Positions 14,817-63,970 of a stretch of DNA of 64,000 nt are shown in pieces. The stretch comes from Neocallimastix lanati (nom. inval.) (taxonomy: Eukaryota > Neocallimastigomycota > Neocallimastigomycetes > Neocallimastigales > Neocallimastigaceae). The notes under the pieces were generated by a model. That model had not been told where the DNA came from, made no database searches, and saw nothing but the letters and a program-made list of their open reading frames with translations. The stretch is from positions 1,550,001 to 1,614,000 of the forward strand of contig JACVTC010000022.1 in NCBI GenBank assembly GCA_016946835.1. The letters are read 5' to 3'. Each line of letters begins with the position of its first letter. Within the stretch, counting starts at the first letter, position 1. The translations under genes and the position numbers were made by a program.

Positions 14817-16388
14817 ATGGAGGAAAATAAAGAACAAAGAGGTTTTTATAAACTTTCCTGGTTACAGCGTATAGGTTATGCATCTGGTGATCTTGCACAA
14901 AACTTCATTTATCAAACAATTAGTCAATATATTCTTATTTTTTATACTGATGTATATCTATTAGGAGGAGACCCATCAAAGACTGCTGGTTTGGCATCAA
15001 CAATGTTATTTGTTGTTCGTTTTATAGATTTAATTTGGGATCCAATTGTAGGAGCTTTAGTAGATAAGAAAAATCCTCGTTGGGGTAAATATCGTTCTTA
15101 TCTTATATTTGGAGGTCTTCCATTGAGTATTTTCTCTATTCTTTGTTTCTATGATGGATTTAAACCTTCCATTCTTTATGCATACATTACATACATTGGA
15201 CTTTCTATGCTTTACACTCTTGTTAACGTTCCTTATGGTGCATTAAATTCTTCATTAACTAGAGATACGGATGAAGTTACCATTCTTACTACAACTCGTA
15301 TGTTTTTCGCTAATATTGGTGGTTTTTGTGTTGGTGCTGGTGTACCAATCATTGTTGCCTTTTTTGCTGGTAAAAAAGTTCCATACGAATTAGTTTTCTT
15401 CCAAGGTATTGGTTCTCTTCCTTCCTTTATCTTTTTACCTTTAATTCCGGTCATTAAAAGTAAAGTTGGTAAGAAGAATATGTTCTATCTTTTCATCACC
15501 ATTGCTATTTTTGGAATGGCCATGTTATACGTTGTCAGTAGATATGATATTAACAAATATATTGTTTTAATTTACATTGCTCAATTTATAAAGGGAACTG
15601 GTCTCACTGTTGCTGGAGGATACGCGTGGGTTTTAGTTCCAGAAGTTATTTCTTATGGTGAATATAAAACTGGCCGTAGAATTTCTGGTATTGTAAATTC
15701 TCTTACTGGTATTTTTTACAGAGCTGGTGTTGTTATTGGTGGATTAGTTCCAGGAAAGGTTTTAGATTGGACAAATTATAAGGCTCCTGATGAAGAAGAA
15801 ACCAATTTACCAAATGATTCAAGAGCATGGTTCTGGACCATTTTTATTTATTCTGTTGTAGGTTTCTTCCTTCTTGTTTTCTGTTTCATTGAAAGTAAGG
15901 AACGTGTTGTTATGAAAGATAAGGAAGAAAAAAATGTAAAATTTAGTGATTTATGGGTTGAATTTATACGTAATCGTCCATTACGTGTCGTTGCTCTCTA
16001 CTTCATTACGTCCTTCACCTTAGGTAATATTAATAGTGCCTCTGGTGCCTATTTAATGAATAATCTTGAGGCCCAATCTTCAAGTGCACAAGAAGGTATT
16101 CGTTGGTTGGTAAGTGTTATCCCAGCCGCGTTATTAATTCTTGAAATGATAATCATATCTAGATATGAATTGACGGATGAAAAAATTGATGAAATTAACA
16201 TGGCTATTGAAAATAATGAACATATTAAACCTGAAAGTGATATTACTGAAATTGAAGTTGAAGATCCGAATAAAATTGAAAAAGAGAAAGAAAAAGAAAT
16301 CAATACTGAAAAAAATAAAAAGGAAAAAGATATCAGTGATATTGAAGCTAATGATGATGATACTATTGATGTTAAAGTGGATAAATAA
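14817..16388 (+). CDS. GPH/MelB-family (MFS_2) sugar:cation symporter with rearranged helix order
   Basis: The product (523 aa) is a glycoside-pentoside-hexuronide:cation symporter of the MelB type and should import a sugar at the plasma membrane. The N-terminal half is canonical: GDLAQNFIYQTISQY..FYTDV (residues 24-46), D71 and D75 in FIDLIWDPIVG, and RWGKYRSYL (88-96). The loop motif VPEVISYGEYKTGRR is at residues 274-288. After helix 5 the order is unusual. Blocks that normally form helices 8-11 (about 191-330) come before blocks that normally form helices 6-7 (ESKERV at 359-364, NRPL at 386-389). The normal last helix (GIRWLVSVIPAALL..ISRYELTDEKIDEI) follows. The frame is open throughout. 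The C-terminal tail (465-523) is charged and Lys/Glu-rich. There is no intron, and base composition is far higher in GC than the flanks. The family is mostly bacterial, so bacterial origin is plausible. An AATAAA signal follows the stop. The substrate cannot be told. Confidence 0.88.
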   Translation: MEENKEQRGFYKLSWLQRIGYASGDLAQNFIYQTISQYILIFYTDVYLLGGDPSKTAGLASTMLFVVRFIDLIWDPIVGALVDKKNPRWGKYRSYLIFGGLPLSIFSILCFYDGFKPSILYAYITYIGLSMLYTLVNVPYGALNSSLTRDTDEVTILTTTRMFFANIGGFCVGAGVPIIVAFFAGKKVPYELVFFQGIGSLPSFIFLPLIPVIKSKVGKKNMFYLFITIAIFGMAMLYVVSRYDINKYIVLIYIAQFIKGTGLTVAGGYAWVLVPEVISYGEYKTGRRISGIVNSLTGIFYRAGVVIGGLVPGKVLDWTNYKAPDEEETNLPNDSRAWFWTIFIYSVVGFFLLVFCFIESKERVVMKDKEEKNVKFSDLWVEFIRNRPLRVVALYFITSFTLGNINSASGAYLMNNLEAQSSSAQEGIRWLVSVIPAALLILEMIIISRYELTDEKIDEINMAIENNEHIKPESDITEIEVEDPNKIEKEKEKEINTEKNKKEKDISDIEANDDDTIDVKVDK

Positions 16389-18882: not shown

Positions 18883-21800
18883 ATGTCTAACGAAACCAAA
18901 TTAAGAACTGAAGATATTCTCAATAAGGATAACTTCGAAAACTGGGAATTCCTTATTAAAAACATTCTCAAATCTTTAAAAATTTTACAGTATGTAAATG
19001 AGAATGTAATCGGTAAATTAAATGATAAGCTTAAGGAGGAAAAGGGAAAACCCAAATCCGACGAAACCGTCAAAGCTATCAAGGACTTGGAAAAGGATAT
19101 CAAAGAAGCTGAAACTCAAGATGCCTTAGCCAGTACCATTATCAGTAAAAATGTAAGTCAAGAAGTTTTGAGCTACATAAGATATCTTACCACCGCCTAT
19201 GATATTATGGAAAAATTAAAGGTCTTATATGGAAAAAAGAAAACTGCTGATCTCAACTACTGGTTGAAGAAGTTATATTCTTTAAAAGCCAAAAATCTTT
19301 CGGAATGCAAGGATATCATTAATCAAATTAAAGAAATCTTTGAAGTAATGGATAAGAACAATATCAAACTCGGAACTTGGGAAAAGATCAGGGTTTTATA
19401 TTTGTCTTATCCAAAAGTTTTAAGAGACCTTATTCATCCTAGTGGAACAGAAACAGTTGATGACTTCCTCGAAGAGTCAATCAACAAGATTAATTTCCAC
19501 ATTTTCCTGCACAGTGCTATCAATTTCGATAGAAGCGTCACAGATAAAGGTGACTTCATGGATATTGATAACATTGAGTCAAGCGGTTCAAAAAATAATA
19601 AAACCAGACCAAGTCCGGAGCCAAACTATTGTTACCTGTGCAAAATGTTTGGACATACTACCGATGAATGTAGATTTAACCTTATCAACAAAAACAGGAA
19701 CAGATCGACTCAAAAAGGCAAGAAGCAATCAAACAAAAAGAAAACTAAAATCAATAAAAGGAAAGGTAAAAATAGCCACCAAAAATCAATTGCAAACGTC
19801 GAATATGAAGAACGAAATTCTGATGAAGAACTTTCCTTAGAAGAACTTAGGACCATGTATGATAAAAATTTAGACAGCTTTGAGCCGTTAGAAGAAAAAA
19901 AGAACACTAAAGAAAACTATGAAAATAAATGCATTTCTTTAGTATTAAATTCTTCAGAAGATACAACGATTTGGACCTTTGATACTGGTGCTTCAGAGCA
20001 CATTACCAATAACAAAGATATCCTCTCAAACTTTAGAGAAGAAAAGATCACTATGCAGTGTGCAAATAATTCAATCTGTGAGTTTGACGGGGTTGGTACC
20101 TATGAAGGAAGTATTAATGGTTACAACATAAAATTCGAAAATGTCCTCTATTCTAAACAAGTTAACAAGAATCTTCTGAGTGGAATTAAACTTGCGAAGA
20201 ATGGATTAAAATGTAACATTAAATCCAGGAGAGACAAAGTTTTTCTCACTTTAAAAACCACACTTGAAAACAAAAGAACAATTAATATAGGCACATTTAA
20301 AGCTAATAAAAACAATACAATTCATATACTTACGAAGAATAAATCGAATTTAAAGAATTGTATTGACATCGTTTCACCTGAAGAAACAATGGACATAAAT
20401 GACCAGTCTAAAATGCTATGGCATAGAAGACTTGGACATTTTTATCAAGACAATTTAACTAAATATCTAAAACTCCACAATGTCAAAATTAATGAATGCT
20501 TAAATTGTAAAATTGCCAAATTAAATAGGAAACCCCATAATGGAGACACTCCAAAAGCAAAGCATCCACTAGATGTAGTCCATTCTGATGTTATCGGTCC
20601 TATTTCAAAATCATACTCAGGGAAAAGGTATGTTCTTACCTTTATTGACGAATATACTCGCAAAAGTTGGATCTTCCTCTTGGAAAACAAATCAGAAGTT
20701 CCAAGAACAATTATAAATTTCTTTACTTACTTAAATAATCAATTCTATTATAATATTAAAACTTTTCGTTCGGATCAAGGTACTGAATATAACAATAAAA
20801 AGGTACTAAACTACTGCAAGGAACACGGTATAATAAAAACATTTTCACCACCATACAACCCTCAAAACAACGGGATTGCTGAACGATTCAACTACACCAT
20901 TGTAAGTTGTGCAAAAACTTTAATTCAGTGGAGCAAAATGTCTAGTGAGTTTTGGGATTACGCTATCAAATATGCAAATTTACTTTATAACATAACTCCA
21001 CATAAAGGAATTGGAAATAAAATTCCAAATGAAATCTATTATAACAAAAAGATCAGTCTTAAATATATTAAAGTTTTTGGTTGTGATGCCTACTATAAAG
21101 ATTTTTCACAAGGAAAAATGAAATTTGATAGCAACAGTAAAAAGGGCGTATTTTTAGGAATAAGCATTGAATCCAATTGCTATATAATTATGGATTCAAA
21201 GGACTACAGTATTCACTTAGTAAGAGAAGCAGTATTTGATGAAGAAACTCCATCAAATTTATCAACCAAGATACGCAACAATAAATTACCAACCAACATT
21301 TTCAATAACGACAATTATATTTACGAATTACCAATTATCAACTCTAACGAAAATGAAAATACATACGATGATTCTGGAAAATTGATATACAATGAAGAAT
21401 CTAATGAAGAATCTAATGAAGAATCTAATGAAGAATCTAATGAAGAATCTAATGAAGAATCTAATGAAGAATCTAATGAAGAATCTAATGAAGAATCTAA
21501 TGAAGAATCTAATGAAGAATCTAATGAAGAATCTAATGAAGAATCTAATGAAGAATCTAATGAAGAATCTAATGAAGAATCTAATGAAGAATCTAATGAA
21601 GAATCTAATGAAGAATCTAATGAAGAATCTAATGAAGAATCTAATGAAGAAAATACAGAATCCAAAGAAAATAATTCTTCATCAAGAAAAGGTAAGGAAT
21701 CAGAAATTGATTCATCTGTTTCATCTATTAAAAACAATAATATTAATAAAATTATAAATACTCCTATTACTAACAACAAGAAAGATGAGAATAATAACTC

Positions 21801-23727
21801 TGCTAAAGGTAAGGAACCTGAAGACAATTATCTAAATGATGAAAAAATTGAATCCATTGATGATCTCGCTTCAGATTTCCAATCTATTAGTGTTTCAAAT
21901 GATGAATCAAATTTCTCTGGGGACATTTCTTTAGAAAAGGATAAAATAAAATTTAATCCATCCACTAAAAGAAAGTCATCAACTTGTAATATTTCACCTA
22001 CCAAAAAGAAGATTAACTTAAACAATGAAATATTAAACACTGTTCCCCTTAAACATAAATTGATTCATTCCGAACATCCAGAGAGTAAGAAATTAAGACC
22101 ATCCATGAATGAATCGCATAAAAGACCTGGAAACCCTATTCAATCCAACAGTAACAAAAAGCACAAGATCTCCCTCGACAATGTTGAAACTTCTAAAAGA
22201 TGTATTACCGAAACACCTCTTTCATATAAACAAGCCATCACGCGTTCAGATAAAATCCGGTGGATAGAAGCTATGAATTCCGAATTACAAAACTTCTATG
22301 ACAACCGAACCATGATTTTTGTTAAATCGCTTCCTCCTGATGTTAAACCCATAACTACTAAGTGGGTTTATACTCTAAAAAAGGACGGTAATGGTAATAT
22401 CTCAAAATACAAGGCTCGTCTGGTTGCTCGTGGTTTCACCCAGAGAAAGGGAATTGATTATAACTTAACATATTCTCCTACCCTTAGTTTAGATAGTCTA
22501 AAACTTATAATTGCGCTTGCTTCAAAATTCAATTGGGATCTAATGCAGCTTGATATTAAAGCTGCCTATCTTAATGCTCCGTTGGATAAGGATATTTATG
22601 TTAATATCCCCCCTGGTGACAAGAATTTTGGTAAAGGTTATTGGCTTCTTAGAAAAGCTTTATACGGATTAAAACAGTCAGGTCGCCAATGGCACATCCA
22701 CTTCACAAACTTTCTCAAAAATAATGGTTTCACTCAATTGACATCTGAACCATGTATTTTTGTTAAAATGGAGGGAGGAAGAGCTGTCTGTATTATTGGA
22801 GTTTACGTGGATGACTTATTAATAACAGGAATAAAATACTATATAAATAAAATTATTAAAAGAATTAAGAAAAACTTTAAAGTTTCAAAATGCAGTGAAG
22901 CGGATTATATTTTAGGAATTAATATTGAAAAGGAAAATACAAGCTGCGTAATTTCTCAAATTCAATTAATAAATGATATATTACAAAAATTCAAAGTTAA
23001 AAATATAAGAAAGTCAAAAACGCCTTGTTCAAGCATCTCAAATTCAGCAAAGAATAATGAACCATTCGATAAAACAACATTTAAAAGTGCAATCGGATCG
23101 TTAATCTATCTAGCCAGGTGTACCCGTCCAGATATTACTTACGCTGTAGGAAAGATTGCTAGAAATTCTGAGAATCCTACCATAGCTGATTGGAAAATGG
23201 TAATAAATATATTAAAATACTTAAATTATACTAAATACTACAAAATTAAATATAAAGGACAGGGGGAAATTATGGCATATACTGATGCTGACTACGCTGG
23301 TGACCCAAAAGATAGGAAATCTACTTCGGGGTATATAATATCAATGAATAATGATCCAATATGTTGGCAATCCAAGAAACAAACAGTAGTTGCCACATCT
23401 ACCGCGGAAGCTGAATACATTGCTACCGCTGAATGTACTAAAAAGGTTTTATGGATCCGAAATATTTTATATGAAATATTCAACATTAAAAAACCAATAA
23501 AAATATTCACTGATAACTTAGCAAGTAAAACGACAATAGAAAACGGTGAACTCAACAATAAATTAAAACATATAGAAATAAAATTTTACTTCAATAAAGA
23601 TAATATCAAAAATAACAGAATAAAATTAGAATACATCAATACCGAAAGGATGTTGGCAGATCCATTAACAAAAGATTTTAATGGACCAAAAATGACTAAG
23701 TTTACAAACCAAATCTTTGACAAGTAA
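18883..23727 (+). CDS. Copia Gag-Pol polyprotein
   Basis: 1614 aa in one frame, with no frameshift between Gag and Pol. Domains in order: Gag (start DNFENWEFLIKNIL, 1-240); CCHC zinc knuckle CYLCKMFGHTTDEC (249-262); aspartic protease DTGASEH (367-373); integrase zinc finger HRRLGH..C..C (about 514-545); integrase core with DVIGP (about 566), SDQGTEY (about 630) and the Glu of GIAERF (about 667); reverse transcriptase from WVYTLKKDGNG (about 1161) with YVDD at 1308-1311; RNase H (AYTDADYAGD near 1465, then STAEAEYIA and FTDNLAS). All key motifs are intact, so the copy may be active. Between integrase and reverse transcriptase lies an EESN tetrapeptide repeat of about 21 copies, then Ser/Asn/Lys-rich sequence. 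The ATG at 18883 lies 35 nt after the 5' LTR. Confidence 0.95.
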   Translation: MSNETKLRTEDILNKDNFENWEFLIKNILKSLKILQYVNENVIGKLNDKLKEEKGKPKSDETVKAIKDLEKDIKEAETQDALASTIISKNVSQEVLSYIRYLTTAYDIMEKLKVLYGKKKTADLNYWLKKLYSLKAKNLSECKDIINQIKEIFEVMDKNNIKLGTWEKIRVLYLSYPKVLRDLIHPSGTETVDDFLEESINKINFHIFLHSAINFDRSVTDKGDFMDIDNIESSGSKNNKTRPSPEPNYCYLCKMFGHTTDECRFNLINKNRNRSTQKGKKQSNKKKTKINKRKGKNSHQKSIANVEYEERNSDEELSLEELRTMYDKNLDSFEPLEEKKNTKENYENKCISLVLNSSEDTTIWTFDTGASEHITNNKDILSNFREEKITMQCANNSICEFDGVGTYEGSINGYNIKFENVLYSKQVNKNLLSGIKLAKNGLKCNIKSRRDKVFLTLKTTLENKRTINIGTFKANKNNTIHILTKNKSNLKNCIDIVSPEETMDINDQSKMLWHRRLGHFYQDNLTKYLKLHNVKINECLNCKIAKLNRKPHNGDTPKAKHPLDVVHSDVIGPISKSYSGKRYVLTFIDEYTRKSWIFLLENKSEVPRTIINFFTYLNNQFYYNIKTFRSDQGTEYNNKKVLNYCKEHGIIKTFSPPYNPQNNGIAERFNYTIVSCAKTLIQWSKMSSEFWDYAIKYANLLYNITPHKGIGNKIPNEIYYNKKISLKYIKVFGCDAYYKDFSQGKMKFDSNSKKGVFLGISIESNCYIIMDSKDYSIHLVREAVFDEETPSNLSTKIRNNKLPTNIFNNDNYIYELPIINSNENENTYDDSGKLIYNEESNEESNEESNEESNEESNEESNEESNEESNEESNEESNEESNEESNEESNEESNEESNEESNEESNEESNEESNEESNEESNEENTESKENNSSSRKGKESEIDSSVSSIKNNNINKIINTPITNNKKDENNNSAKGKEPEDNYLNDEKIESIDDLASDFQSISVSNDESNFSGDISLEKDKIKFNPSTKRKSSTCNISPTKKKINLNNEILNTVPLKHKLIHSEHPESKKLRPSMNESHKRPGNPIQSNSNKKHKISLDNVETSKRCITETPLSYKQAITRSDKIRWIEAMNSELQNFYDNRTMIFVKSLPPDVKPITTKWVYTLKKDGNGNISKYKARLVARGFTQRKGIDYNLTYSPTLSLDSLKLIIALASKFNWDLMQLDIKAAYLNAPLDKDIYVNIPPGDKNFGKGYWLLRKALYGLKQSGRQWHIHFTNFLKNNGFTQLTSEPCIFVKMEGGRAVCIIGVYVDDLLITGIKYYINKIIKRIKKNFKVSKCSEADYILGINIEKENTSCVISQIQLINDILQKFKVKNIRKSKTPCSSISNSAKNNEPFDKTTFKSAIGSLIYLARCTRPDITYAVGKIARNSENPTIADWKMVINILKYLNYTKYYKIKYKGQGEIMAYTDADYAGDPKDRKSTSGYIISMNNDPICWQSKKQTVVATSTAEAEYIATAECTKKVLWIRNILYEIFNIKKPIKIFTDNLASKTTIENGELNNKLKHIEIKFYFNKDNIKNNRIKLEYINTERMLADPLTKDFNGPKMTKFTNQIFDK
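21391..21650 (+). repeat. 12-bp coding minisatellite in copia pol
   Basis: About 21 near-perfect copies of GAATCTAATGAA encode (EESN)n. The unit is a multiple of three, so copy-number change keeps the frame. Shadow frames here give runs of MKNL and SSLD repeats. Confidence 0.95.
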
Positions 23728-27701: not shown

Positions 27702-28395
27702 TTATTTAATATTGAAAAGATTTTTTATTGATATATAATATTTATTATTTATTATTTGATATTTATTATTTAGTTATTTAATAAATATAATTTTTTGAAT
27801 TAATAATAAATGTTAAAAAGTTTTATAATAATAATTATATAATAATAATAATTATATATAATAATTAATAAATAATAAATATATATTTTTATTTTTATAA
27901 TTATTGAAGAATAGAATATTATATTTTAATTAATACTATTTTGTATATATTGTTATGATAATACCAAAAAAATTTATTAAAATATTTAAATATTTGAATT
28001 AAAATAGATGATATTGGTGGCTTAATTTTAATTAATATTTTTATTTTTTAAAATATTAAAGTATAATGTAATATATGAAGTATAAATATATTGCAATTAA
28101 AATTTTTAAATTAAAAATAAAATAAAAAAGTTTCATAATCAATATATAAAAAATATTGTATTTAACTATATTTAACTATATTAACTTTTTTTTTCCTTTA
28201 ATTTATGATCCATAAAAGAAATTAGATTACATTAAATTAAAGAAAATAAAATTTTTCATAAAAAAAAAAAAAGTTATATATATATAAAATAAGAATTACT
28301 TTTTTTTTTATATTTTTTTATTTTATTTTCCACTTTTTTAATTTTATTTTTATCTTTATGTCATATTAACTATTAGAATAAAATAATTTTAAAAA
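27483..28395. promoter_or_regulatory. 5' flank of TTLL copy 1, duplicated at copy 3
   Basis: From about 27760 this AT-rich sequence aligns with 44935-45640, with few differences over the last 450 bp. It is the presumed promoter region. No specific factor site can be named. Confidence 0.45.
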
Positions 28396-31300
28396 TGTTT
28401 ACTTTAAAATATTTTAGGTAAAATAGAATGTTAAATAATCATATATACCATATTTATTATTTTATTTTATTTGATATATAGAGGCTTAACATTTAATATG
28501 TATTATATATATAAATCTAGTATTCTATATATTGCTATATTTCAAGGATTTTTATCAAATTTAGTAAAAGCACTTAGTAAAGTATCTTAATACAAATTAA
28601 ATAAATACTATTAAACTCGAAATTTTTATATAAATTCAAAATAATTTAAATATATATTAATAGTTATTTATAATTTTGTTTTTAAATATTTTTTATAATT
28701 TTTATTTTTTTTTAACTAATATTATATTATATATATATCTTTTATATCATACCTGTACATTTTAAAATTTAAATTAATAATGTCACATAATTATTTATCA
28801 ACACCTTTAATTTCATTGTTAAATATAAACATTTTTTTTCATATATTATCTTTATCATAACATAACATATATATTAAAATATAATAGATAGTTGCGGTAA
28901 TTAAATTTTTATTTAAAAAATTAAAAAAAAATATATATAAATATATATATAATCAACAAATAAAAATATTTAAAATGAAATATAAATTTAATACTAATAT
29001 ATTTATTATATATATATAATACATATTATTCTTTAATGACTTTTATAACTAAAAATAAAAATATTTGAAAGTTGAAAGTATGTAAAAAATAATTGCTTTT
29101 ATGAAAATAATATATATATGTTAAACTAAAATGAAAATAGTAATATTGTTATTTTTGTTAAATTTATACATACTTAAAGTATGAAAAAATTTATATAAAA
29201 ATAACATTTTATATTTTATTAGTTAAGAAATAGAAATACTTAAAATTTTAAAATTTTATTCTAAAAAATATTGAATTTATTAATATTATATTAAATTAAT
29301 ATTTACAATATAAATAATTAATATTTTATATTACCTTTTTTGCTTATATATTGTTAGCTGGTAAACAGGATTTAAATTTTTTTTATTATTTAATAAATTT
29401 AATATAATTGCATATTAAAATTTTAATTCCTTTCTCATAATTAATATAAATCTAAATTTATATAAATATTTTTAATAAAATATTTATAAATAGGAAAGAA
29501 TGAGTGCCTAAATAGTAAATATCATTTTGCATATATATTAATATAAAAAGATATAATAATATAATTTTATATCCAATAATATTTGATTCATATACCAATA
29601 TTATAAATTATATATAATATTGATAATTTTCAATGTAACTAAAATTTTTATTATTGATTTTTAAATACTTAATATAATTTAAAAAAAATAAAAAAAATCA
29701 TTATATTATGTTATAAATTATTTATAAAATAAATTTACTTGTATAGTGCGTGAGTAAAATTAAAAATTAATGATTATTAATCATTATTAAAATTATTCAA
29801 TTTAAGTTTAACTTTTATATTTATTAATTATAAATATTTTAACTATGAATTCTAAATTTTAATTTGACTTAAATCGCATGAATAGCTGGTAAGAATAATT
29901 AAATTTATAAAACTTAAAATTTAAACTTTATTCAAAATTGAAAAATTAATTGTAAAAATTATTTTAATTATTAATATTTTAATTATGGATATATTTTTAA
30001 TTAATTATTTCTTTGTTTTCAAAATAAATTAAATAAATAGTTGGTAAGTAAAAATATGAATATAAGTTATTATTTTATATTTTTTTTTTATTTCACAAAT
30101 CAAAAGAAAATTAATTTTTTTATTATTATTTTATTTTTTTAAATATTATTGATATACTAATATTATATAATTTTTAAAATTAATAGGTCGTAAGTGTTAT
30201 ATATTTAAATGTATTTTAATTATAAAATTATATTCAGATCAGTTATAATAATAATAAATATATAAATTAAACACTGTTATTTTAATTTCAAATCAATATA
30301 TATTACCTTGTATAATTAGAAGGTATGTATAAATTTAAAAATTAATTGTTATTCTAAATATTATAAGAACTATTTCAATTAAAGGTATAAAATATTTATT
30401 AATTTAAATTAAATATAAATATTTAATTTATATCACGAATTGTTTTAAATTAATAGCCAGTAAGTATAAATAAATAATTTTAATCATATTTTAAAAATTA
30501 TTAAAATAATTCAAAATAATTTCAAATATTATATATATATTATTAATTTTATATGAAATATTTGTTTACAATTATTTTTATTTTATTTTTATAAATAGAT
30601 TGTAAGTATAAATATAATTTTTGAATAATTTTTTTAATATACTCTAAAATTTTAAATAAAATCTTTTGTTTTATGGCTTTAAATTATTCTTAATTTTTTA
30701 TTTTTACAATTGAATCATTTCAATAGTTGGTAAAGTATAAATACATATAAATAATAATTTAATTATATGAAATTCCTGAAATTGGATTATAATTGACATA
30801 TATATATTATTAATAATTTAATATACAATATATTTATATGCTTTTAATTTATTTTTAAATTGTATATTATAAATAGCATGTAAGACAATATTATATATTA
30901 ATAAATATTTTTATAAATATCATTAGTATTTTTTCATATATTAAATATATTATTATAATTTTACATTTAAATCTTCAAATCAATTACAAATAAAAATGTA
31001 TATTATAATTATTTTTCATATAAAATATAACTATTGTACTCTTATAATAATCATTAATAAATATTCAGCAATTGGTAAATATTTTATGATGTTATTAAAT
31101 AAATTATTTATAAAATTAAATTTGTTAAAGAAGTTTTAAAATTTATATTAATAATTAATATCTATTTATAATATAATAATTACTATTTATTTATTTATTA
31201 TATATAAGGATATAAGGATTATTCTAGTATGCAAAATTATATATTTATTTAAAATTAAAATTAATAATGAATATATTTTAAATTTTATATTGTTTATAAA

Positions 31301-33164
31301 AAAATATATTTAATAAAATATTAGCATATCAAGTTGACAGATCGATTAACTATTCTGGATGTATTGGAAGTAAGTACAATAGATATTTGTTAAAATTATA
31401 GATTAATAGTAAAAATAATTAATGATAGTATTATTAATAATTAATAATAATTATTAATAATAAAACATATTTATTGAATAGTAAAATATATGAAAATATA
31501 TAATTGTTAATAAAAATAAAATAAAAATATATATATATAAATATAATTATTAATTAAAATTTTATAAAATTTGTATTAAAAATGTCTTTTTAAAAAATAT
31601 ATATATTAAATAATTAATATTTATTATTTATTTCTTAAAAAAAAAATAAAATGAAATAAAATAAATTAAAAAAAAAAAAAAAAAAAAAGATGAATGTAAA
31701 TCAAATAATTTAAAAGAATATAGAACAGAAGATATTGAAAAATTTGAAAAGAAATTTAAAGAATTTAAAGATGTTGAACAGCAAGATTTATCAATGCTAA
31801 GCCCTTCTAATTATTGTAAATGTCACCAGAGAACGGTATATTTCAAATACCATGATTTTATTGGAAAAAATAATACTAGTGAAAATATAGATAATGTTAC
31901 CATATATAATAAAGAATATTTTGTTGGTGGAACACAAAATTTTTCGAAAAACCCAAACTCAAAATTTTCTTATGAATGTGTAAAAAATCCATACGAATAC
32001 AATAATATTATTAGACTTTTTAATAATACTGAATCAAATTTGTTGTGGCATAATTCATCAAATATGACTTTGATAGGAACTTTTAATAAATATCAAAGAT
32101 ATAATCATATTTTTAAGCATAGCGATATTACTTTAAAAAACAGATTATATGATAATTTTTTAAGATTCCAAAAAAAATATCCAAAGGACTATAATTATAT
32201 GACTGAAACTTACACTAGTAAAAGATTAGAAATTTTCAAAAATCGTTATAAGGATTATAAAATTTCGCAAGATAATTTATGGTTAGTAAAGCCTAGAGGA
32301 TCTGCCAGAGGTAAAGGAATTCATTTTCTTGAAGATATTAACAATATTAATAAAACTGATATCATTACAAGATACATTTCAAATCCATTACTACTTGAAA
32401 AAAAAAAATTTGATTTAAGAATCTATGTATTAGTCACTGGACATGATCCTTTAAAAATTTATATTTTTGAAGATAGTTTTGCAAGATTATCTTCAGATGA
32501 ATATGATACTGAATTAAATGATTTAAATAATGTTTATAAGCATTTAACTAATGTATCCGTTAATAAGAAGAAAAAGACAAATAATAGTACTTCATATGTA
32601 TGGTCCGTTAAAAAGGTTAAAAGATATTTATTGGAAGAATATGGTGTTGAATTTAGTGATATTTGGAAAAAAATTGAAGATATAGCTATTAAAGCAGTTA
32701 TTACTATGAATAAATCCGAAATAAAAAGAGAAAAGGAACTTAATTCAAAAAATAATTTTAATATAAAATCAAATAATATATTCGAAGTATATGGTTTTGA
32801 TGTTTTAATTGATAATAATATGAAGCCATGGTTATTAGAAATAAATTTAAGTCCTGATTTATCCATCAATAGTAAATTCCAAAAACAATTAAAATATAGA
32901 TTAATGGATGATACATTTAATATTGTTGGATTAGTTCCTTATTCTCATATTACAGGTTTAGCAATGGAAGGAGAATGTGAATATAAGGATCCTGTGGATG
33001 AAGCCGTACAACAAAGTGTTTGTGAAATCACAAGACCTACGGGTGGATATAAAAGAATATTTCCTTTAAAAGAAAATATTGATTATTATAAGAAATTCTT
33101 TGAAGAAGTTTCACCAAATAATCAAGCATTATGGGATGAAATTCAAAAAAATGAAAAAATTTAA
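28396..33164 (+). CDS. TTLL-family ligase with signal peptide, copy 1 (18 exons)
   Basis: Tubulin-tyrosine-ligase-like ATP-grasp enzyme; the family attaches amino acids (Glu, Gly, Tyr) to protein carboxylates. The model gives 560 aa. Exons: 28396-28418, 28521-28576, 28888-28896, 29358-29360, 29494-29514, 29747-29749, 29886-29888, 30041-30043, 30187-30189, 30320-30322, 30457-30459, 30599-30601, 30727-30729, 30877-30879, 31069-31074, 31209-31226, 31325-31369, 31690-33164. Residues 1-25 look like a signal peptide (MFTLKYFSILYIAIFQG). Cys 29, 35, 67 and 72 follow. The TTL domain has WLVKPRGSARGKGI (267-280), KKFDLRIYVLV (308-318), HLTNVSVNK (354-362), and GFDVLIDNNMKPWLLEINLS. The ATG at 31794 is internal to the last exon; the frame is open back to 31690. 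A 6-nt exon TTGAAA (before GTATGT, about 29073) is an optional extra. An acceptor inside an A run at 31688 is weak. Target protein and cell site are unknown. Confidence 0.8.
28888..31226 (+). other. Array of micro-exons including ten 3-nt exons (copy 1)
   Basis: Exons of 9, 3, 21, then nine of 3, one of 6 and one of 18 nt are each bounded by AG and GT. The 3-nt exons read CTG, TGC, CTG, TTG, GTC, AAG, CCA, ATT, TTG, CAT. Donors are GTAAGT, GTGAGT, GTATGT, GTAAAG and similar; acceptors are almost all (A/T)TAG. Every exon here enters and leaves in phase 1. Joined, they read ..NSCAGKNECLNMPVGQANF.., with no stop. Start-to-start spacing of the nine consecutive 3-nt exons is 128-155 bp. Confidence 0.75.
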
Positions 33165-40556: not shown

Positions 40557-40558
40557 AT

Positions 40559-42401
40559 GCTTTATATAAAAAATTTAAGGTAATATAGAATGGAATATAT
40601 TTTTTACATAACATTTAATATATATATTATAATTGTATATCTAATATACGTAAATATTAATATATTACATATAAATAAAGTATACTATATGTTGTTGTTC
40701 TTCAAGGATTTTTATCGAATTTAGTAAAAGCTCTTAGTAAAGTATCTTTATACCAAATTGAATAAATTATGTTGATATTTAAATTTATACATAATTTAAA
40801 TATATACGAAATAATTTAAATATACATATTAATAGTTATTCTATTTTTTTTATATCTTTTCTGTATATTTTAATTATTTTTTTATTATTTATTTTAAACT
40901 AACATTTATTTATATTTTATATATGTAATGATTGTTTTAAATAAATAATAAATTATTGGATGTAGATGGTAAAAAAAAATAATCGATTCTTTAAAAAATA
41001 TATATATATCTAACTAAAAAAAAAATGAATAATGATATTTTTGTAAAAAAATATATATATATGTATATGTATATATATACTTTTAGTATTAAAAATTTCA
41101 TATAGAAATAACATATAAAATTAATAATAATAAAGAAATAGAAATATAAAAAATTCAATTAAATTTAATAGATTTTTCTTTCTAATAAATATTAATTTAA
41201 AAAATATTTTGTTGGTGGAATACAAACATTTTCTTCTAATAAACCTTACTCAAAATTTTCTGTGTCATGTCTTAGAGATACATTAGAATATAATAATATT
41301 ATTAGACTTTTCAATAATACTGATTCAAATTTAATATGGAGTAATAGCTCAAATAAGACTATAGCAGCCGGTTTAAGTAAATATCAAAGATTTAACCATA
41401 TTGTTAAACATGGTCAAATTACTTTAAAAGACAAATTATACAATAATTTTTTAAGATTCCAAAAAAAATTTCCAGATGATTATACTTATATGGCTGATAC
41501 ATACACAAGTGAAAGAATAAACCAATTCAAAAAGAAATATAGAAATTATGAAATTTCAAAAGACAATTTATGGTTAATAAAGCCTAAAGGAGCTGCCAGA
41601 GGTATTGGAATTCATTTTCTTAAAAATGTAGATGAAATTAATAAAACTGATATCGTTACAAAATATATTTCGAATCCATTACTTCTTGAAAAGAAAAAAT
41701 TTGATTTAAGAGTCTATTTATTAGTCACTGGACATGATCACTTAAAAATTTATATTTATAAAGAAAGTTTTGCAAGAATGTCTTCCGATGAATATGATTT
41801 AGAATTAGAAGATTTAGATAATGTATTTAAACATTTAACTAATGTATCTGTTAATAAGAAAAAGAAGACACAAAATGGTAGTTCATTTATATGGTCCCTT
41901 CCAAAGGTTAAAAGATATATTTCAGAAGAATATGGGGTTGATTTTAATGAAGTTTGGGAAAAAATTGAAGATATAGCTATTAAAGCAGTAATTACTATGA
42001 ATAAATTAGAAATAGACACAGAGAAGAAGATGTATTCACATTTAAATTCAAGTAATACTTTCGAACTCTATGGTGTTGATATTTTAATTGATGATAATAT
42101 GAAGCCATGGTTATTAGAAATAAATTTAAGTCCAGGTTTATCAAGTAAAACTGGCTATCAAAGAAGTTTAAAATATAAATTAATGGATGATACATTTAAT
42201 ATTGTTGGATTAGTTCCTTATTCCCATATTACAGGTTTAGCAATGGAAGGAGAATGTGAATATAAGGATCCTGTGGATGAAGCCGTACAACAAAGTGTTT
42301 GTGAAATTACTAGACCTACAGGTGGATATAAAAGAATATTTCCTTTAAAAGAAAATATTGATTATAAATTTTATTTATATATTTTAATTTTAGTTATATA
42401 A
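40559..42401 (+). pseudogene. TTLL copy 2, chimeric and truncated
   Basis: A signal-peptide exon pair like those of copies 1 and 3 is present: ATG at about 40558 with donor GTAATA, then the exon after AAAG at about 40680 that encodes ILYVVVLQGFLSNLVKAL. The micro-exon region is missing. From 41203 to 42365 the sequence is almost identical to 49439-50601 of copy 3 (one residue change, GHDP to GHDH). An in-frame TAA lies just upstream of 41203, with no acceptor after it, and the C-terminal 30 residues are replaced from 42366. The frame called from 41262 starts at a GTG inside the protein. ATP-grasp motifs are intact, but no complete protein is predicted. Confidence 0.7.
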
Positions 42402-45640: not shown

Positions 45641-48600
45641 ATGTTTGCTTTAAAATATTTTAGGTAAAATAGGATGTTAAGTAATCATATATACCATATT
45701 TATTATTTTATTTGATATATAGAGGCTTAACATTTAATATGTATTATATATATAAATCTAGTATTCTATATATTGCTATATTTCAAGGATTTTTATCAAA
45801 TTTAGTAAAAGCACTTAGTAAAGTATCTTAATACAAATTTAAATAAATACTATTAAACTCGAAATTTTTATAAAGATTCAAAATAATTTAAATATAAATA
45901 TTAATATATATTTATAATTTTGTTTTTAAATATGTTTTATTTAACAATACTTTTTTTTTTATTATTAAATATAAACATTTTTCATATATTAATATATTAT
46001 CTTTATAATAACATAACATGCATATTAAAATATAATAGATAGTTGCGGTAATTAAATTTTTATTTAATTTAAAAAATTAAAAAAATATATATAAATATAT
46101 ATATATCAACAAATAAAAATATATAAAATGAAATATAAATTTAATACTAATATATTTATTATATATATATAATATATATTATTCTTTAATGACTTTTATA
46201 ACTAAAAATAAAAATATTTGAAAGTTGAAAGTATGTAAAAAATGATTGCTTTTATGAAAATAATATATATATGTTAAACTAAAATGAAAATAGTAATATT
46301 GTTATTTTTGTTAAATTTATACATACACTAAGTATGAAAAATTTATATAAAAATAACATTTTATACTTTATTAGTTAAGAAATAGAAATATTTAAATTTA
46401 TAAAATTTTTTTCTAAAAAATATTAAATTTATAAATTTTATATTAAATTAATATTTACAATATAAATAATTAATATTTTTATATTACCTTTTTGCTTATA
46501 TATTGTTAGCTGGTAAACTGGATTTAATTTTTTTTATTATTTAATAAATTTAATATAAATATACATTAAAATTTTAATTTTTTTCTATAAATTAATATAA
46601 TTTTAAATATATATAAATATTATTAATAAAATATTTATAAATAGGAAAGAATGAGTGCCTAAATAGTAAATATCATTTTGCATATATATTAATATAAAAA
46701 GATATAATAATATAATTTTATAAATAATAACATTTAAATTATATACCAATATTATAAATTACATATAATATTAATAATTTTCAATGTAACTAAAAAATTT
46801 TATTTTTGTTTTTTAAATATTAAATATAATTTAAAAAAAAAAAAAAAAAATCATTATATTATGTTATAAATTATTTATAAAATAATTTACATGTACAGTG
46901 CGTGAGTAAAACTAAAAATTAATGATTATTTATTCATTATTAAAATTATTCAATTTAAGTTTTAACTTTTAAATTTATTAATCATAAATATTTAACTATA
47001 TGAATGCTAAATTTTAATATTTAAATCAATTTCATGAATAGCTGGTAAGAATAATTAAATTTATAAAACTTAAAATTTAAGCTTTATTCAAAATTGAAAA
47101 ATTAATTGTAAAAATTATTTTAATTATTAATATTTTGATTATGGTGGATATATTTTTAATTTTTTTTTTCGAAATGAACCATATAAATAGCTGGTAAGTA
47201 AAATATAAATTATTATAAATTTTATTAAAATTAATAGAAAATTGAATTTTTTTTTTACTAATATTTTAACTAATTATATATGTTTAAATTGTTGATAGGA
47301 TGTATGTATAAAATATATAATTAAACATAATAAATAAACATTATTAGAGCTGATTCATTTAAATGTATATATAATTTATTTATTTTAAATTACATGTAAA
47401 TTTGTAATTTGTTTGACAAATCTTTAAAAATAAATAGCTAGTAAGTATAACATATATATTTTAAAAAATATATTTTTAATATATATATATTTTTTTTGAT
47501 CATTATTCCAATAAAATAATTAAATTAAAAATAAATCTATATATGACTAATTTTTATATTTTATTTTATATCTTTATTTTTATTTATAATGTAAAATCAT
47601 TCTTTTTTATTTTGTTAAAAATAGAAAGTAAGTACAAATAAATATTTTTGAGATATTTTTTAATTATAAATAAATTAATAATAATTAATTATAAGAAATA
47701 TATGAATTAATTTTATAAATACTATATAATAAATTTTATTATATAATTTATAATACTTTTTTTTAAAAAAAATAGTAGGAAGTATGTATATAAATAATTT
47801 TAATTAGTATTTTAAACATTAATAGATTAATTTAAAATAATTGAAAATATATATATATATTTGTTATTAATTTTTAAATTGTAATTTATTTATAATTTTA
47901 TAACATATTTTTTTATAAAAATAGATTGTAAGTAAAAAAAAGTAATTATATGAATAAAATTTTAAGAAAAATTAAATCTTTATTAATTGAAATTAATTTT
48001 TTTTTCATAAAAATTATACTATGTTCATATTTTTAAATTCATTAAATTGAATTAATTAAAAAAATAGTTGGTAAGTATATAATCATATAATCATTTAAAT
48101 TGTTTAATTTTTTTTAAATTATTTAATATTATTGATATTAATAGTAATCCTTAACAAAAAATATTTAACATATATATTATTATAAATTATTTATATATAT
48201 AATATATATACATTTTTTTTTAAATTACTTTATGTAAATAGCATGTAAAGGAAAAATATATATATATATTTGTTATTGTTATTTAATTATTAATATTATT
48301 TCATACATTACAATATAATTATATATTTTTAACTTCATAAATTTAATAAATATTTTTTTTCAAATTAATTGCATATAAATATATATTATGAATATCTTTC
48401 ATATATAAAACTATAAATATTAATATTAATATTAATATTAATATTATTTTCATTAATAAATATTTAGCAATTGGTAAATATTTTATGATATTATATTAAA
48501 TAAATAATATATTAAAACTTAAATTTATATATATATATATATTAATTTGAGAATTTATTTTCTAATTCTAATTTTCGAAAATATATATTTAAAAATTAAT

Positions 48601-50679
48601 GTAAATTATTTATGATATAAGGATATAAGGATTATTCTGATAGTAAGTAAAATTAAACATTTATATAAAATTAAAAATTAAAATTAAATATATAATAAAT
48701 TTTATATTGTATAATAAAAAAATATTTAATAAAATGTTAGCATATCAAGTAGACAGATCGATAAACTATTCTGGATGTATTGGAAGTAAGTACAATATAT
48801 ATTTATTAAAATTATAGATTAATAGTAAAAATAATTAAAGATAACAATAATAAATAATTAGCAATACTTTTTAAAAATAAAATATGTTTATTGAATAGTA
48901 CAATATATGAAAATATTGAAAATTATTAATAAAAATAAAATAAAAAAAATATTTAAATATAATTATTAATTAAAATTTTAATATATATATTTTTTAAAAA
49001 ATTCATTTTTAAATATTATAAAATTTAATTAATTAATAATAATAATAATAATAATAATTTATAATAATAAATAATAATAATAATAATAATTAATAATAAA
49101 TAATAATAATAATAATTAATAATAATTAATAATAAATAATAATAATAATAATAAATAATAATTAATAATAATTTATACTAATAATTTATACTAATAATTA
49201 TATTATAAAACAGAAGAATGTAAAACGGATACTTCAGAAAAAATTATTGTTGAAAATACTAAATATTTTCAAGATAAATTTAAAGAATTCAAAAAGGTTA
49301 AACAACAAAATTTATTAATGCTTTCCCCTTCCAATTACTGTAAATGTCACCAGAGAACCGTTTTTTTCAAATACCATGATTTTACTGCAAAAGATAATAT
49401 CAATGAAAATGTAAATAGTATTTCATTAAATAATAAAGAATATTTTGTTGGTGGAATACAAACATTTTCTTCTAATAAACCTTACTCAAAATTTTCTGTG
49501 TCATGTCTTAGAGATACATTAGAATATAATAATATTATTAGACTTTTCAATAATACTGATTCAAATTTAATATGGAGTAATAGCTCAAATAAGACTATAG
49601 CAGCCGGTTTAAGTAAATATCAAAGATTTAACCATATTGTTAAACATGGTCAAATTACTTTAAAAGACAAATTATACAATAATTTTTTAAGATTCCAAAA
49701 AAAATTTCCAGATGATTATACTTATATGGCTGATACATACACAAGTGAAAGAATAAACCAATTCAAAAAGAAATATAGAAATTATGAAATTTCAAAAGAC
49801 AATTTATGGTTAATAAAGCCTAAAGGAGCTGCCAGAGGTATTGGAATTCATTTTCTTAAAAATGTAGATGAAATTAATAAAACTGATATCGTTACAAAAT
49901 ATATTTCGAATCCATTACTTCTTGAAAAGAAAAAATTTGATTTAAGAGTCTATTTATTAGTCACTGGACATGATCCCTTAAAAATTTATATTTATAAAGA
50001 AAGTTTTGCAAGAATGTCTTCCGATGAATATGATTTAGAATTAGAAGATTTAGATAATGTATTTAAACATTTAACTAATGTATCTGTTAATAAGAAAAAG
50101 AAGACACAAAATGGTAGTTCATTTATATGGTCCCTTCCAAAGGTTAAAAGATATATTTCAGAAGAATATGGGGTTGATTTTAATGAAGTTTGGGAAAAAA
50201 TTGAAGATATAGCTATTAAAGCAGTAATTACTATGAATAAATTAGAAATAGACACAGAGAAGAAGATGTATTCACATTTAAATTCAAGTAATACTTTCGA
50301 ACTCTATGGTGTTGATATTTTAATTGATGATAATATGAAGCCATGGTTATTAGAAATAAATTTAAGTCCAGGTTTATCAAGTAAAACTGGCTATCAAAGA
50401 AGTTTAAAATATAAATTAATGGATGATACATTTAATATTGTTGGATTAGTTCCTTATTCCCATATTACAGGTTTAGCAATGGAAGGAGAATGTGAATATA
50501 AGGATCCTGTGGATGAAGCCGTACAACAAAGTGTTTGTGAAATTACTAGACCTACAGGTGGATATAAAAGAATATTTCCTTTAAAAGAAAATATTGATTA
50601 TTATAAGAAATTCTTTGAAGAAGTTTCACCAAATAATCAAGCATTATGGGATGAAATTAAAAAAAATGAAAATCTTTAA
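45641..50679 (+). CDS. TTLL-family ligase with signal peptide, copy 3 (19 exons)
   Basis: Paralog of copy 1; the model gives 559 aa. Exons: 45641-45663, 45762-45817, 46039-46047, 46510-46512, 46645-46665, 46899-46901, 47042-47044, 47191-47193, 47299-47301, 47438-47440, 47625-47627, 47779-47781, 47925-47927, 48068-48070, 48242-48244, 48468-48473, 48622-48642, 48741-48785, 49214-50679. It starts MFALKYFSILYIAIFQGF, a likely signal peptide, followed by NSC, NEC and SGC..KEC cysteines. The TTL core has WLIKPKGAARGIGI, KKFDLRVYLLV, HLTNVSVNK and GVDILIDDNMKPWLLEINLS. The last exon holds all ATP-grasp motifs, while all introns fall in the first fifth of the protein. Compared with copy 1 it has one more 3-nt exon and one more codon in exon 17. 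An insertion of about 100 nt with an A run right after the stop region (50673-50776) changed the last residues. The ATG at 49318 is internal. Confidence 0.8.
46039..48642 (+). other. Array of micro-exons including eleven 3-nt exons (copy 3)
   Basis: The 3-nt exons read CTG, TGC, CTG, CTG, GAT, CTA, AAA, GAA, ATT, TTG, CAT, each between AG and a GTAAGT-, GTGAGT- or GTATGT-like donor. With the 9-, 21-, 6- and 21-nt exons the joined frame reads ..NSCAGKNECLNMPAGSKRNF.., which aligns with copy 1. First and last micro-exons are identical between copies; the middle ones differ. All are phase 1-1. Confidence 0.75.
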
Positions 50680-62230: not shown

Positions 62231-63970
62231 ATGGATCCAGCAAATATGACTGAAGTTTCTTTAGACACTCTTAATAATGAAAAATCATTGGAATATTCAG
62301 CGACTAATGATGTTAGTATTTCTACTAATGATATTACTGAAATTTCCATAGATACGCTTAATAATGAAAAGGTTAATGTAATGATCACTCTTCCAGATAA
62401 TGATATGGATCATTCTTCAGTTCAGGAAAATGATTTTCTTAATCAAAAAGTTGATGAAAAGGGTTACCCCATCGTTAAGAAAGTAGGTGGTGGTGGTCCT
62501 GAATACCCAAAATTCTTCCCAATGTTAATTACTATCATTTCAATATTATTTTTCACTATTTTAAATGAATCAGTTGCCTCTGTAATGTATGCCGATTTAA
62601 CAAAGGAATTTAACAAGGAAATTACTACTGTTCAATGGGTTACTACTGCTTTTATTATTGTATTAGCTATAGGTATGGTACTTTCAGCTTATCTCTCAAA
62701 ACATCTTTTGCTACGTACAATCTTCTTTGTTGCAGATGGCTTTTTTTTGATTGGCTCTATTTTATGTGTTGTTGCTCCTACTTTCGCCGTTTTAATTGTG
62801 GCTCGTATCTTCCAAGCCATTGGTACCTCTATGCTTATGCCACAAATTACTCCAGTGATTATGATTATGGCTCCAAGAGAACATGTAGGTATGTATAATG
62901 GTTTAACCATGGTCGTTGCTGGTTCTGGCGCTGCTTTAGGTCCAACTCTTTCAGGTGTAATTACCAATTACTTGGGTTGGAGATATGTCTTTTTAATTTT
63001 GACTCCAATTCCACTTATTGGTGGTCTTTGTGGTATTAAAACCATGGGTAATGTAGTGAAACAAGAAAAAACTCGTATTGATTTCCTCTCTTTAATTTTA
63101 GTCTTCCTTGGTTATGGTGGCATTTCTCTTGGTTTAGGTTTTGCTGGTGATGAAGGTTTTACTTCCTGGAAAGTTTTGGTTCCATTAATCATTGGTATTT
63201 TGGCCTTACCTTTACTTTTCCTTTCCTTCGATAGAAGTAAGAATCCTCTTATTAATGTCAAGAATATGGGTAATGCCTACTTTATTTTAAATATCTTTTA
63301 CAGTGCATCTCAATCTTTCTTCGTTTTAGGTCTTTTAGCAATCTTCCCATTCATAATAGAGCACAGTTTAGGTAAGAGTGTCTTTATTAGTGGAATCTCT
63401 CTTTTACCTGGAGGTATTGTTAATGCCCTTATGAATATTGTGGCAGGAAAAATTTATGATAAATATAGATTTAAGTACTCTTATATTGCCTACTTCTTCA
63501 TGTTATTAAGTGCTATCTTTATGTTCTTAATGTTCCGTTATGGTCATGCTGAATTATGGGTCATAATATTGGGTTATCTTATCGTCTCCTCCTTAGTTCC
63601 TATTATTCCAACTACATTCAGTACTGCGGCATTAACCAGTATTCCACCTCAATCTACACCTCATGGAGGTGCTCTTTTCCATTCCTCTTACCAATTATTC
63701 GGTGCTTTAGGTACTGCTGTCTATATTGCCATCTTAAAGGGTTGTGGTTCAGTCTCCTGGGTTGATAGTGAAGATCCATTTATCAGAGGTGGTACAATGT
63801 GTTTACTTTTATTAATTATAACTATGGTATTCTTCTTTATTACTTCCGCAATTTGGTGTAATTATTACTTCCATAAGCATCCATTAAAATTAGAAACAAA
63901 GAAGAATATGGAAAAAGAAAAAAATATGAAAGAAATTAAAAATGAAAAAAATGAAAAAGGAAAAATATAA
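62231..63970 (+). CDS. DHA2-family (14-TM MFS) drug:H+ antiporter-like transporter
   Basis: 579 aa, major facilitator of the drug:H+ antiporter-2 group (EmrB/QacA/LmrB-like), a plasma-membrane exporter of toxic small molecules or similar. The first 93 residues are soluble and contain a duplicated motif: EVSLDTLNNEK (8-18) and EISIDTLNNEK (37-47). Helix 1 starts near FFPMLITIISILFFT (95-109) with LNESV following. TVQWVTTAFII (133-143) is the family's helix-2 signature, and the motif C region AGSGAALGPTLSG is at 230-242. About 14 hydrophobic segments follow. The tail is Lys/Glu/Asn-rich and probably cytosolic. There is no intron, and the codons are much richer in GC than the flanks. Sequence style is close to Firmicutes exporters, so bacterial origin is possible. 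The substrate is unknown. AATAAAG follows the stop. Confidence 0.9.
   Translation: MDPANMTEVSLDTLNNEKSLEYSATNDVSISTNDITEISIDTLNNEKVNVMITLPDNDMDHSSVQENDFLNQKVDEKGYPIVKKVGGGGPEYPKFFPMLITIISILFFTILNESVASVMYADLTKEFNKEITTVQWVTTAFIIVLAIGMVLSAYLSKHLLLRTIFFVADGFFLIGSILCVVAPTFAVLIVARIFQAIGTSMLMPQITPVIMIMAPREHVGMYNGLTMVVAGSGAALGPTLSGVITNYLGWRYVFLILTPIPLIGGLCGIKTMGNVVKQEKTRIDFLSLILVFLGYGGISLGLGFAGDEGFTSWKVLVPLIIGILALPLLFLSFDRSKNPLINVKNMGNAYFILNIFYSASQSFFVLGLLAIFPFIIEHSLGKSVFISGISLLPGGIVNALMNIVAGKIYDKYRFKYSYIAYFFMLLSAIFMFLMFRYGHAELWVIILGYLIVSSLVPIIPTTFSTAALTSIPPQSTPHGGALFHSSYQLFGALGTAVYIAILKGCGSVSWVDSEDPFIRGGTMCLLLLIITMVFFFITSAIWCNYYFHKHPLKLETKKNMEKEKNMKEIKNEKNEKGKI

Follow-up and report, generated by a model that had tools for sequence, protein, structure and literature searches.

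Locus and gene copies

The window analysed here, a stretch of 64,000 nucleotides (C135:1550001-1614000), comes from the 199-Mb, 762-contig assembly of Neocallimastix lanati, which is described as an anaerobic gut fungus with a PacBio-sequenced genome (PMC8561657). Its GC content is 17.7%, and it carries a tubulin-tyrosine-ligase-like gene in three tandem copies, named A, C and B in window order:

28395-33164, plus strand: copy A, 19-exon model with 1689 nt of coding sequence (gene span 4770 nt)
about 40557-42401, plus strand: copy C, exon-1/2-like sequence and a truncated TTL core
45641-50679, plus strand: copy B, 20 exons (gene span 5039 nt)

Elsewhere in the window, two MFS transporter genes (14817-16388 and 62231-63970; PF13347, PF07690) and a Copia-type retrotransposon frame of 1614 aa (18883-23727) were observed. 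A perfect 12-nt repeat of 21.8 copies, AATGAAGAATCT, lies inside this frame at 21391-21651.

All three TTL cores were recovered in a domain profile search (PF03133; E-values of 3.5e-69 for A, 2.1e-70 for C and 3.3e-71 for B). The core of copy C is without its first part, and we therefore rejected the idea that C is an intact paralog free of the 3-nt exon array described below; when looked for in copy C, no such array was seen. Copy C matches the N. lanati model P0008 at 347 of 348 aligned residues. P0008, its annotated product, appears to be joined to sequence further downstream.

Copies A and B belong to the TTL/TTLL family, having both the PF03133 domain and the TTLL fold. The closest structural matches of the TTL core of P0003, a database protein that fits copy B, were TTLL6 (best 6vzv_D). 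In the AlphaFold model of P0003 the TTL core is confident and residues 31-81 have pLDDT values below 50; the array codes for residues 27-60, most of which fall in this stretch. The N-terminus of the A and B proteins is hydrophobic, with a helix predicted at residues 2-31, and judged by its sequence it is probably secretory. Secretion of a TTL enzyme would be odd. The next four best TTL matches in the genome (L004-L007) have a hydrophobic N-terminus and the core in one open frame, and among the seven strongest of 12 TTL matches the array is peculiar to A and B. The TTL-like genes L004-L007 with their hydrophobic N-termini form a family in N. lanati.

Exon structure of copies A and B

The exons of copy A were obtained by spliced alignment of the database protein P0002 (its residue 3 changed to Thr) and by an exhaustive path search. 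All are on the plus strand:

28395..28417: exon 1, 23 nt, hydrophobic N-terminus (MFTLKYF..), from the P0002 alignment
28521..28576: exon 2, 56 nt; P0001 instead takes an upstream acceptor at 28482
28888..28896: exon 3, 9 nt, ATAGTTGCG
29072..29077: exon 4, 6 nt, TTGAAA
29358..29360: exon 5, 3 nt, CTG
29494..29514: exon 6, 21 nt
29747..29749: exon 7, 3 nt, TGC, first of a row of nine
29886..29888: exon 8, 3 nt, CTG
30041..30043: exon 9, 3 nt, TTG, also in P0001
30187..30189: exon 10, 3 nt, GTC, also in P0001
30320..30322: exon 11, 3 nt, AAG
30457..30459: exon 12, 3 nt, CCA, also in P0001
30599..30601: exon 13, 3 nt, ATT, also in P0001
30727..30729: exon 14, 3 nt, TTG
30877..30879: exon 15, 3 nt, CAT, last of the row of nine
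31069..31074: exon 16, 6 nt, CAATTG
31209..31226: exon 17, 18 nt, predicted; missing from P0002 and P0001, counterpart in B present in P0003
31325..31369: exon 18, 45 nt
31690..33164: exon 19, TTL catalytic core (PF03133, E-value as above)

The region from exon 1 to the core covers 3.3 kb, and its introns measure 98-320 nt. An initial annotation of this DNA had described ten AG-NNN-GT units in copy A, and every one lies where it was placed; nine of them (29747-30877) form an unbroken row, which is borne out by both the model and the P0002 peptide. As proposed, phase 1 applies at both ends of the exons at 29358 and 29747-30877, and all of exons 3-19 of A and 3-20 of B enter in this phase. The joined frame, expected to be stop-free, is open as far as the stop at 33164. 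The coding total given earlier, 1683 nt, needs correction: the 19-exon frame is open, but the full model has 1689 nt, and the difference of 6 nt would fit the 6-nt exon at 29072-29077 having been overlooked.

For copy B, spliced alignment of P0003 and the exhaustive path search gave the following exons, again all on the plus strand:

45641-45663 and 45762-45817: exons 1-2, from the P0003 spliced alignment
46039..46665: exons 3-6, with 9 nt at 46039, 6 nt at 46225, 3 nt at 46510 and 21 nt at 46645
46899 (TGC), 47042 (CTG) and 47191 (CTG): exons 7-9, 3 nt each
47299 (GAT), 47438 (CTA) and 47625 (AAA): exons 10-12, 3 nt each
47776..47781: exon 13, 6 nt, TAGGAA; use of an inner second acceptor would leave a 3-nt exon, GAA
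47925 (ATT), 48068 (TTG) and 48242 (CAT, ..48244): exons 14-16, 3 nt each
48468..48785: exons 17-19, with 6 nt at 48468, 21 nt at 48622 and 45 nt at 48741
49214..50679: exon 20, TTL core (PF03133, E-value as above)

Like copy A, copy B thus has ten 3-nt exons, six of them consecutive (exons 7-12, 46899..47627).

Database proteins and splice paths

The exons of A and B are supported by the genome sequence together with database proteins. P0003 (562 aa, from a contig of 1753 bases) fits B with 20 exons, and P0002 (553 aa, contig of 1662 bases) fits A with 18. Under rules of exact translation, GT-AG borders and introns of 50-1500 nt, the path search returned a single valid path for P0003 on B, for P0002 on A and for P0001 on A. 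For P0002 and P0001 to map to A, residue 3 had to be changed to Thr as in the window; in P0002 itself this residue is Ala.

Every 3-nt exon of A is present in P0002 and every one of B in P0003. The segment MPVGQANFA of P0002 corresponds to nine consecutive exons (TGC, CTG, TTG, GTC, AAG, CCA, ATT, TTG and CAT). The reading of the units as one-codon exons, already put forward in the initial annotation, is therefore upheld by a peptide that follows the predicted order in copy A, and likewise in copy B. Neither permuted peptides (0 of 300 per copy) nor shuffled array DNA (0 of 200 per copy) yielded a splice path.

The contigs of P0002 and P0003, known here by their lengths, are shorter than the gene spans of 4770 and 5039 nt and thus lack the introns, and we infer that both proteins derive from transcripts. 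The P0002 record may be a CDS rather than a transcript, because its contig is exactly of CDS length (1662 = 3 x 553 + 3). Both proteins are mosaics of the two copies. P0002 follows B at residue 3, A over residues 42-138 and B again from 147 onwards, and P0003 is B-like except at the last three differences, where it is A-like. They may reflect mosaic assembly or recombinant gene copies. Because A and B code for identical residues 1-41 except at residue 3, P0002 is tied to A only by residues from 42 onwards. Over the array portion of the mRNA (about 72 nt in A and 99 nt in B), each protein fits one copy at all A/B differences.

Three further proteins bear on array usage. The N. californiae gene model P0001 shares with A a core stretch of 456 identical residues; its path on A goes from exon 2 with the upstream acceptor to the 21-nt exon, then through TTG, GTC, CCA and ATT to the 45-nt exon. 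P0001 thus includes four of the 3-nt exons of A and leaves out the others, a subset that suggests in-frame exon skipping, as read from one gene model of another species. The core of P0004, also from N. californiae, is identical to B, and the entire array is missing from this protein. P0005, whose locus lies outside this analysis, has a longer segment at the array position. The array length seems to change, given this longer segment and the one additional array exon of B relative to A. An N-terminal sequence search returned only P0001-P0005, and a search for further isoforms among 3109 short partial proteins gave none with an E-value up to 1.

Chance controls and comparison of A with B

A scan of the window for chains of such sites, based on DNA sequence alone, ranked copy B best (score 41.4; ten sites, one of which arises when a 6-nt exon is read alternatively as 3 nt) and copy A second (nine sites, 35.3). 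In 100 dinucleotide-shuffled 64-kb windows the best chain scored 9.0. Sites scoring at least 2 occur at 8 per 1.6 kb in the A array versus 0.11 elsewhere on the plus strand; two of the ten sites in A, at 29358 (-0.1) and 30727 (0.2), are weak. An assembly or chance artefact is rejected by these shuffles and by the genome-wide controls given below.

Introns 3-8 of A and B are 88-96% identical and introns 9-16 are 61-76% identical. Despite the divergence of introns 9-16, the exons ATT, TTG, CAT and CAATTG, taken in exon order, are unchanged between the copies; the middle three or four triplets of the run differ. Among the aligned bases of 3-nt exons, 21 of 30 were identical in an alignment that misplaced one TTG exon by 4 nt.

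Arrays elsewhere in the genome

Paired ATAG-NNN-GTAWGT units separated by 105-135 nt occur 108 times in the genome (30 + 78), and the reversed control gave 0. The same genome-wide pattern scan found no pairs with 4-nt exons and none with 6-nt exons (for the latter, the reversed control gave 1), and 3-nt exon pairs with a gap of 136-166 nt numbered 8. About ten distinct arrays can be recognised, A and B included. Among the matches listed, they are on C90, C104 (two), C112, C135 (A and B), C235, C268 and C445; near-identical copies of one C104 array are present at C70, C351 and C431, and of the C445 array at C571, with C351, C431 and C571 grouped on the listed strings alone, from which the array grouping as a whole was made. 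Genome queries with array introns add an array of 13 units on C643, and similarity to array introns with few or no units was seen at a second place on C643 (C643b), C31 and C25 (L053, L054, L055), possibly decaying arrays or single copies.

Two of the outside arrays, all of which are predictions from the genome sequence, have the following positions:

C445:11771-20126, minus strand: array (L039, L040) 12-20 kb from the contig start
C90:1467275-1470499, same strand as the downstream domains: array (L010-L012) upstream of an acidic repeat and Chitin_bind_1 domains (PF00187)

The C445 array has 57 strong 3-nt AG-NNN-GT units, 45 of which are predicted to be uninterrupted. Its triplets follow mainly a three-unit cycle of ATG, ATT and TTG, and the phase-1 reading consists mostly of DDF repeats. 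On C268 there are 39 strong 3-nt units, with a longest unbroken run of 10. The position of the C90 array suggests that arrays may be combined with different domains. When six stretches upstream of outside arrays were scanned, one ATG exon candidate was found (C104a); this hydrophobic candidate, at C104:6426, would leave in phase 2 and not in phase 1.

When exon lengths of 1-30 nt were counted in 12 array loci, eight of them found by the 3-nt pattern and four by intron queries (C70 being a copy), 170 units were of 3 nt and every other length occurred at most twice. In the window outside A and B, there was one 3-nt unit and no length peak.

Counted over runs of four or more units, with A and B among them and the C70 copy excluded, the in-run codons contain no stops in phase 1 (0/138), two in phase 0 (2/155) and 46 in phase 2 (46/138). 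With C445 excluded, 3.0 phase-1 stops are expected when triplet order is shuffled, and 2.1% of 2000 shuffles are free of them. A phase-1 motif recurs in related arrays (DKSVELM, AQSVELV, NKSVELI).

Kinship of array introns

Array introns outside A and B are related between loci (median z 2.3-5.6), with a consensus of about 134 nt. Pairwise similarity of A/B introns to these introns is weak (median z 0.9-2.0). A profile of the outside introns, built with no A/B sequence, placed its eight best window hits on array introns of A and B (E-values of 0.0036-0.082), where 9 of its 15 window hits fall. The recurrence of arrays across the genome and the kinship of their introns are therefore evident from the sequence. 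Within A and B, tandem duplication as a visible pattern was rejected, since only the pair A7-A11 stands out (of 211 within-gene intron pairs, it alone exceeds a z of 4). The three-unit cycle of C445 shows growth of that array by tandem duplication, as read from its sequence.

Outside C445, where flanks are 0.80-0.85 identical, the triplets match at 0.93 of 3 bases, which is near random. This divergence is only suggestive of diversifying selection, because AT-rich sequences that are not related also reach fairly high identity when aligned.

Interpretation and alternatives

We consider, with a probability of about 0.87, that A and B contain a real array of one-codon exons in which codon-plus-intron units were multiplied, which is spliced intron by intron and codes for a variable disordered segment. 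In both copies the ten triplets, their phase and the uniqueness of the path are established from sequence and database proteins.

A different origin of equally real exons would be a mobile intron that creates a 3-bp target-site duplication and adds one codon with each insertion. Such an origin does not conflict with what the explanation above says on splicing. Known introners make duplications of 3-9 bp (PMC9860276), and array introns of separate loci, as the consensus of about 134 nt and the profile hits in A and B indicate, are similar to one another. Neighbouring triplets, however, are not identical more often than others: identical neighbours make up 3 of 77 pairs outside C445 versus 2.8% of sampled non-neighbours, and 2 of 49 in C445 versus 19.8%, a comparison with no sign of a 3-bp target-site duplication. 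In addition, when the genome was searched with two array introns (87 and 91 matches), the 40 candidates scored for each query lay in array loci and at a small number of sites that have a single unit or no unit (C31, C25), their contexts being read in part. Since the C445 cycle also points to tandem duplication, we regard the mobile-intron origin as unlikely.

The units could also be ratchet points of recursive splicing, with triplets mostly lost from the mature mRNA or kept as noise. AG-NNN-GTAAGT resembles the zero-nucleotide recursive site AG-GT (PMC13149111), and several triplets are missing from P0001. P0002 and P0003 nevertheless retain all triplets, and an exon length strictly fixed at 3 nt together with phase 1 implies constraint on coding; moreover, recursive splicing goes with very long introns (PMC13149111), whereas those of A measure at most 320 nt. 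This explanation is very improbable. The third alternative, in which the units are a satellite-like repeat whose motifs resemble splice sites, the whole is excised as a single long intron and the triplets are not exons, would suit the repetitiveness of other arrays such as C445 and the fact that outside arrays are known from the genome alone, but it is the least credible of the three given the ordered residues and unique paths in P0002 and P0003, the stop-free phase-1 codons and the four array exons common to A and B between diverged introns.

If the array consists of one-codon exons, as we favor, A and B pre-mRNAs would be spliced one intron after another. The factors of both splice sites do not fit on three nucleotides together. 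Each unit would for this reason have to act as acceptor and then as donor, or in the reverse order; in the former case an AG-NNN-GT unit would be used as a 3′ splice site first and as a 5′ splice site later, with one codon staying in the mRNA. Exon definition presumably cannot work on 3-nt exons, and introns of about 132 nt would suit intron definition. The array codons would form a short disordered segment with the hydrophobic, probably secretory N-terminus on one side and the TTL core on the other. Because all array exons are multiples of 3 and in phase 1-1, any subset could be skipped without a frameshift, and the array may make many N-terminal variants by such in-frame skipping. The arrays of A and B may have grown by multiplication of a unit of about 135 nt, namely a 3-nt exon and an intron of about 132 nt, and about eight further arrays in the genome would be built from such units.

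A wider reading, to which we give even odds, is that of a "codon satellite": tandem units of codon plus intron, about 135 nt long, in up to 45 unbroken copies at about ten loci, from which splicing makes a repeat peptide, with codons changing faster than the flanking introns and with splicing serving to diversify secreted proteins.

Relation to known micro-exon systems

Micro-exon genes have been described in flatworms, aphids and plants, in addition to single exons of 1 or 3 nt, in the literature cited here. Like the flatworm MEGs of schistosomes and tapeworms, A and B have many symmetrical short exons behind an N-terminus that is secretory in MEGs and probably so in A and B, and skipping would alter few residues with no frameshift (PMC7653826, PMC4350168, PMC10526429). 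According to one structural definition, a MEG has at least 7 exons, at least half of them micro-exons (below 70 nt and divisible by 3), in a run of at least 4 (PMC7653826). Copy A has this structure: exons 3-18 (16 of 19) are 3-45 nt long, divisible by 3 and in one run. By another, the coding region consists mostly of micro-exons (PMC4350168), which does not apply to A (135 of 1689 nt). MEGs are animal genes made mostly of micro-exons, whereas those of A stand ahead of a large enzyme core. MEG exons range over 6-81 nt, the majority being of 15 (body of PMC10526429; its abstract gives 3-81), in contrast to the purely 3-nt run of A and B, and the array introns of A and B, unlike those of MEGs, are akin to one another and much alike in length.

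Schistosome VAL-6 is, like A and B, a conserved-domain gene of which a part consists of very small symmetrical exons (PMC4350168); its domain and kingdom are different, and the likeness leaves VAL-6 exon sizes aside. Aphid bicycle and megacycle genes also have many micro-exons of the same phase, more than 100 in megacycle (PMC9168663). Bicycle genes are in phase 2 and encode unrelated proteins, whereas A and B are in phase 1 and do not qualify as bicycle genes, the likeness again being drawn apart from exon sizes (PMC9168663). Exons too small for exon definition are also known from Arabidopsis APC11 (1 nt) and human RPS24 (3, 18 and 22 nt in a row) (PMC4674806, PMC12686416); these are isolated, in contrast to the runs of 3-nt exons in A and B. 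Fungal introner-like elements place similar introns in several genes, as do the arrays (PMC4457414, PMC9860276), but the intron copies found here sit in or near one-codon arrays, with C31 and C25 as possible single copies. At zero-nucleotide recursive sites, a 3′ site is followed directly by a 5′ site (PMC13149111), an arrangement similar to that of array units; the latter, however, keep three nucleotides per step, present in P0002 and P0003, and are thus not zero-nucleotide sites. Among top-ranked results in open-licence PubMed Central, we found no described run of 3-nt exons, in agreement with what the initial annotation had assumed, and no micro-exons in Neocallimastigomycota.

Nine consecutive one-codon exons, with 45 predicted elsewhere, are a challenge to site recognition by a spliceosome that is bigger than the exon, and the arrays offer a natural system in which splicing order and fidelity could be tested. 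Gene models miss such arrays (P0004 the whole, P0001 a part), and similar genes may therefore be overlooked elsewhere. The finding would place micro-exon genes in a fungus and in an enzyme gene, and would show that codons can be gained singly, each together with an intron.
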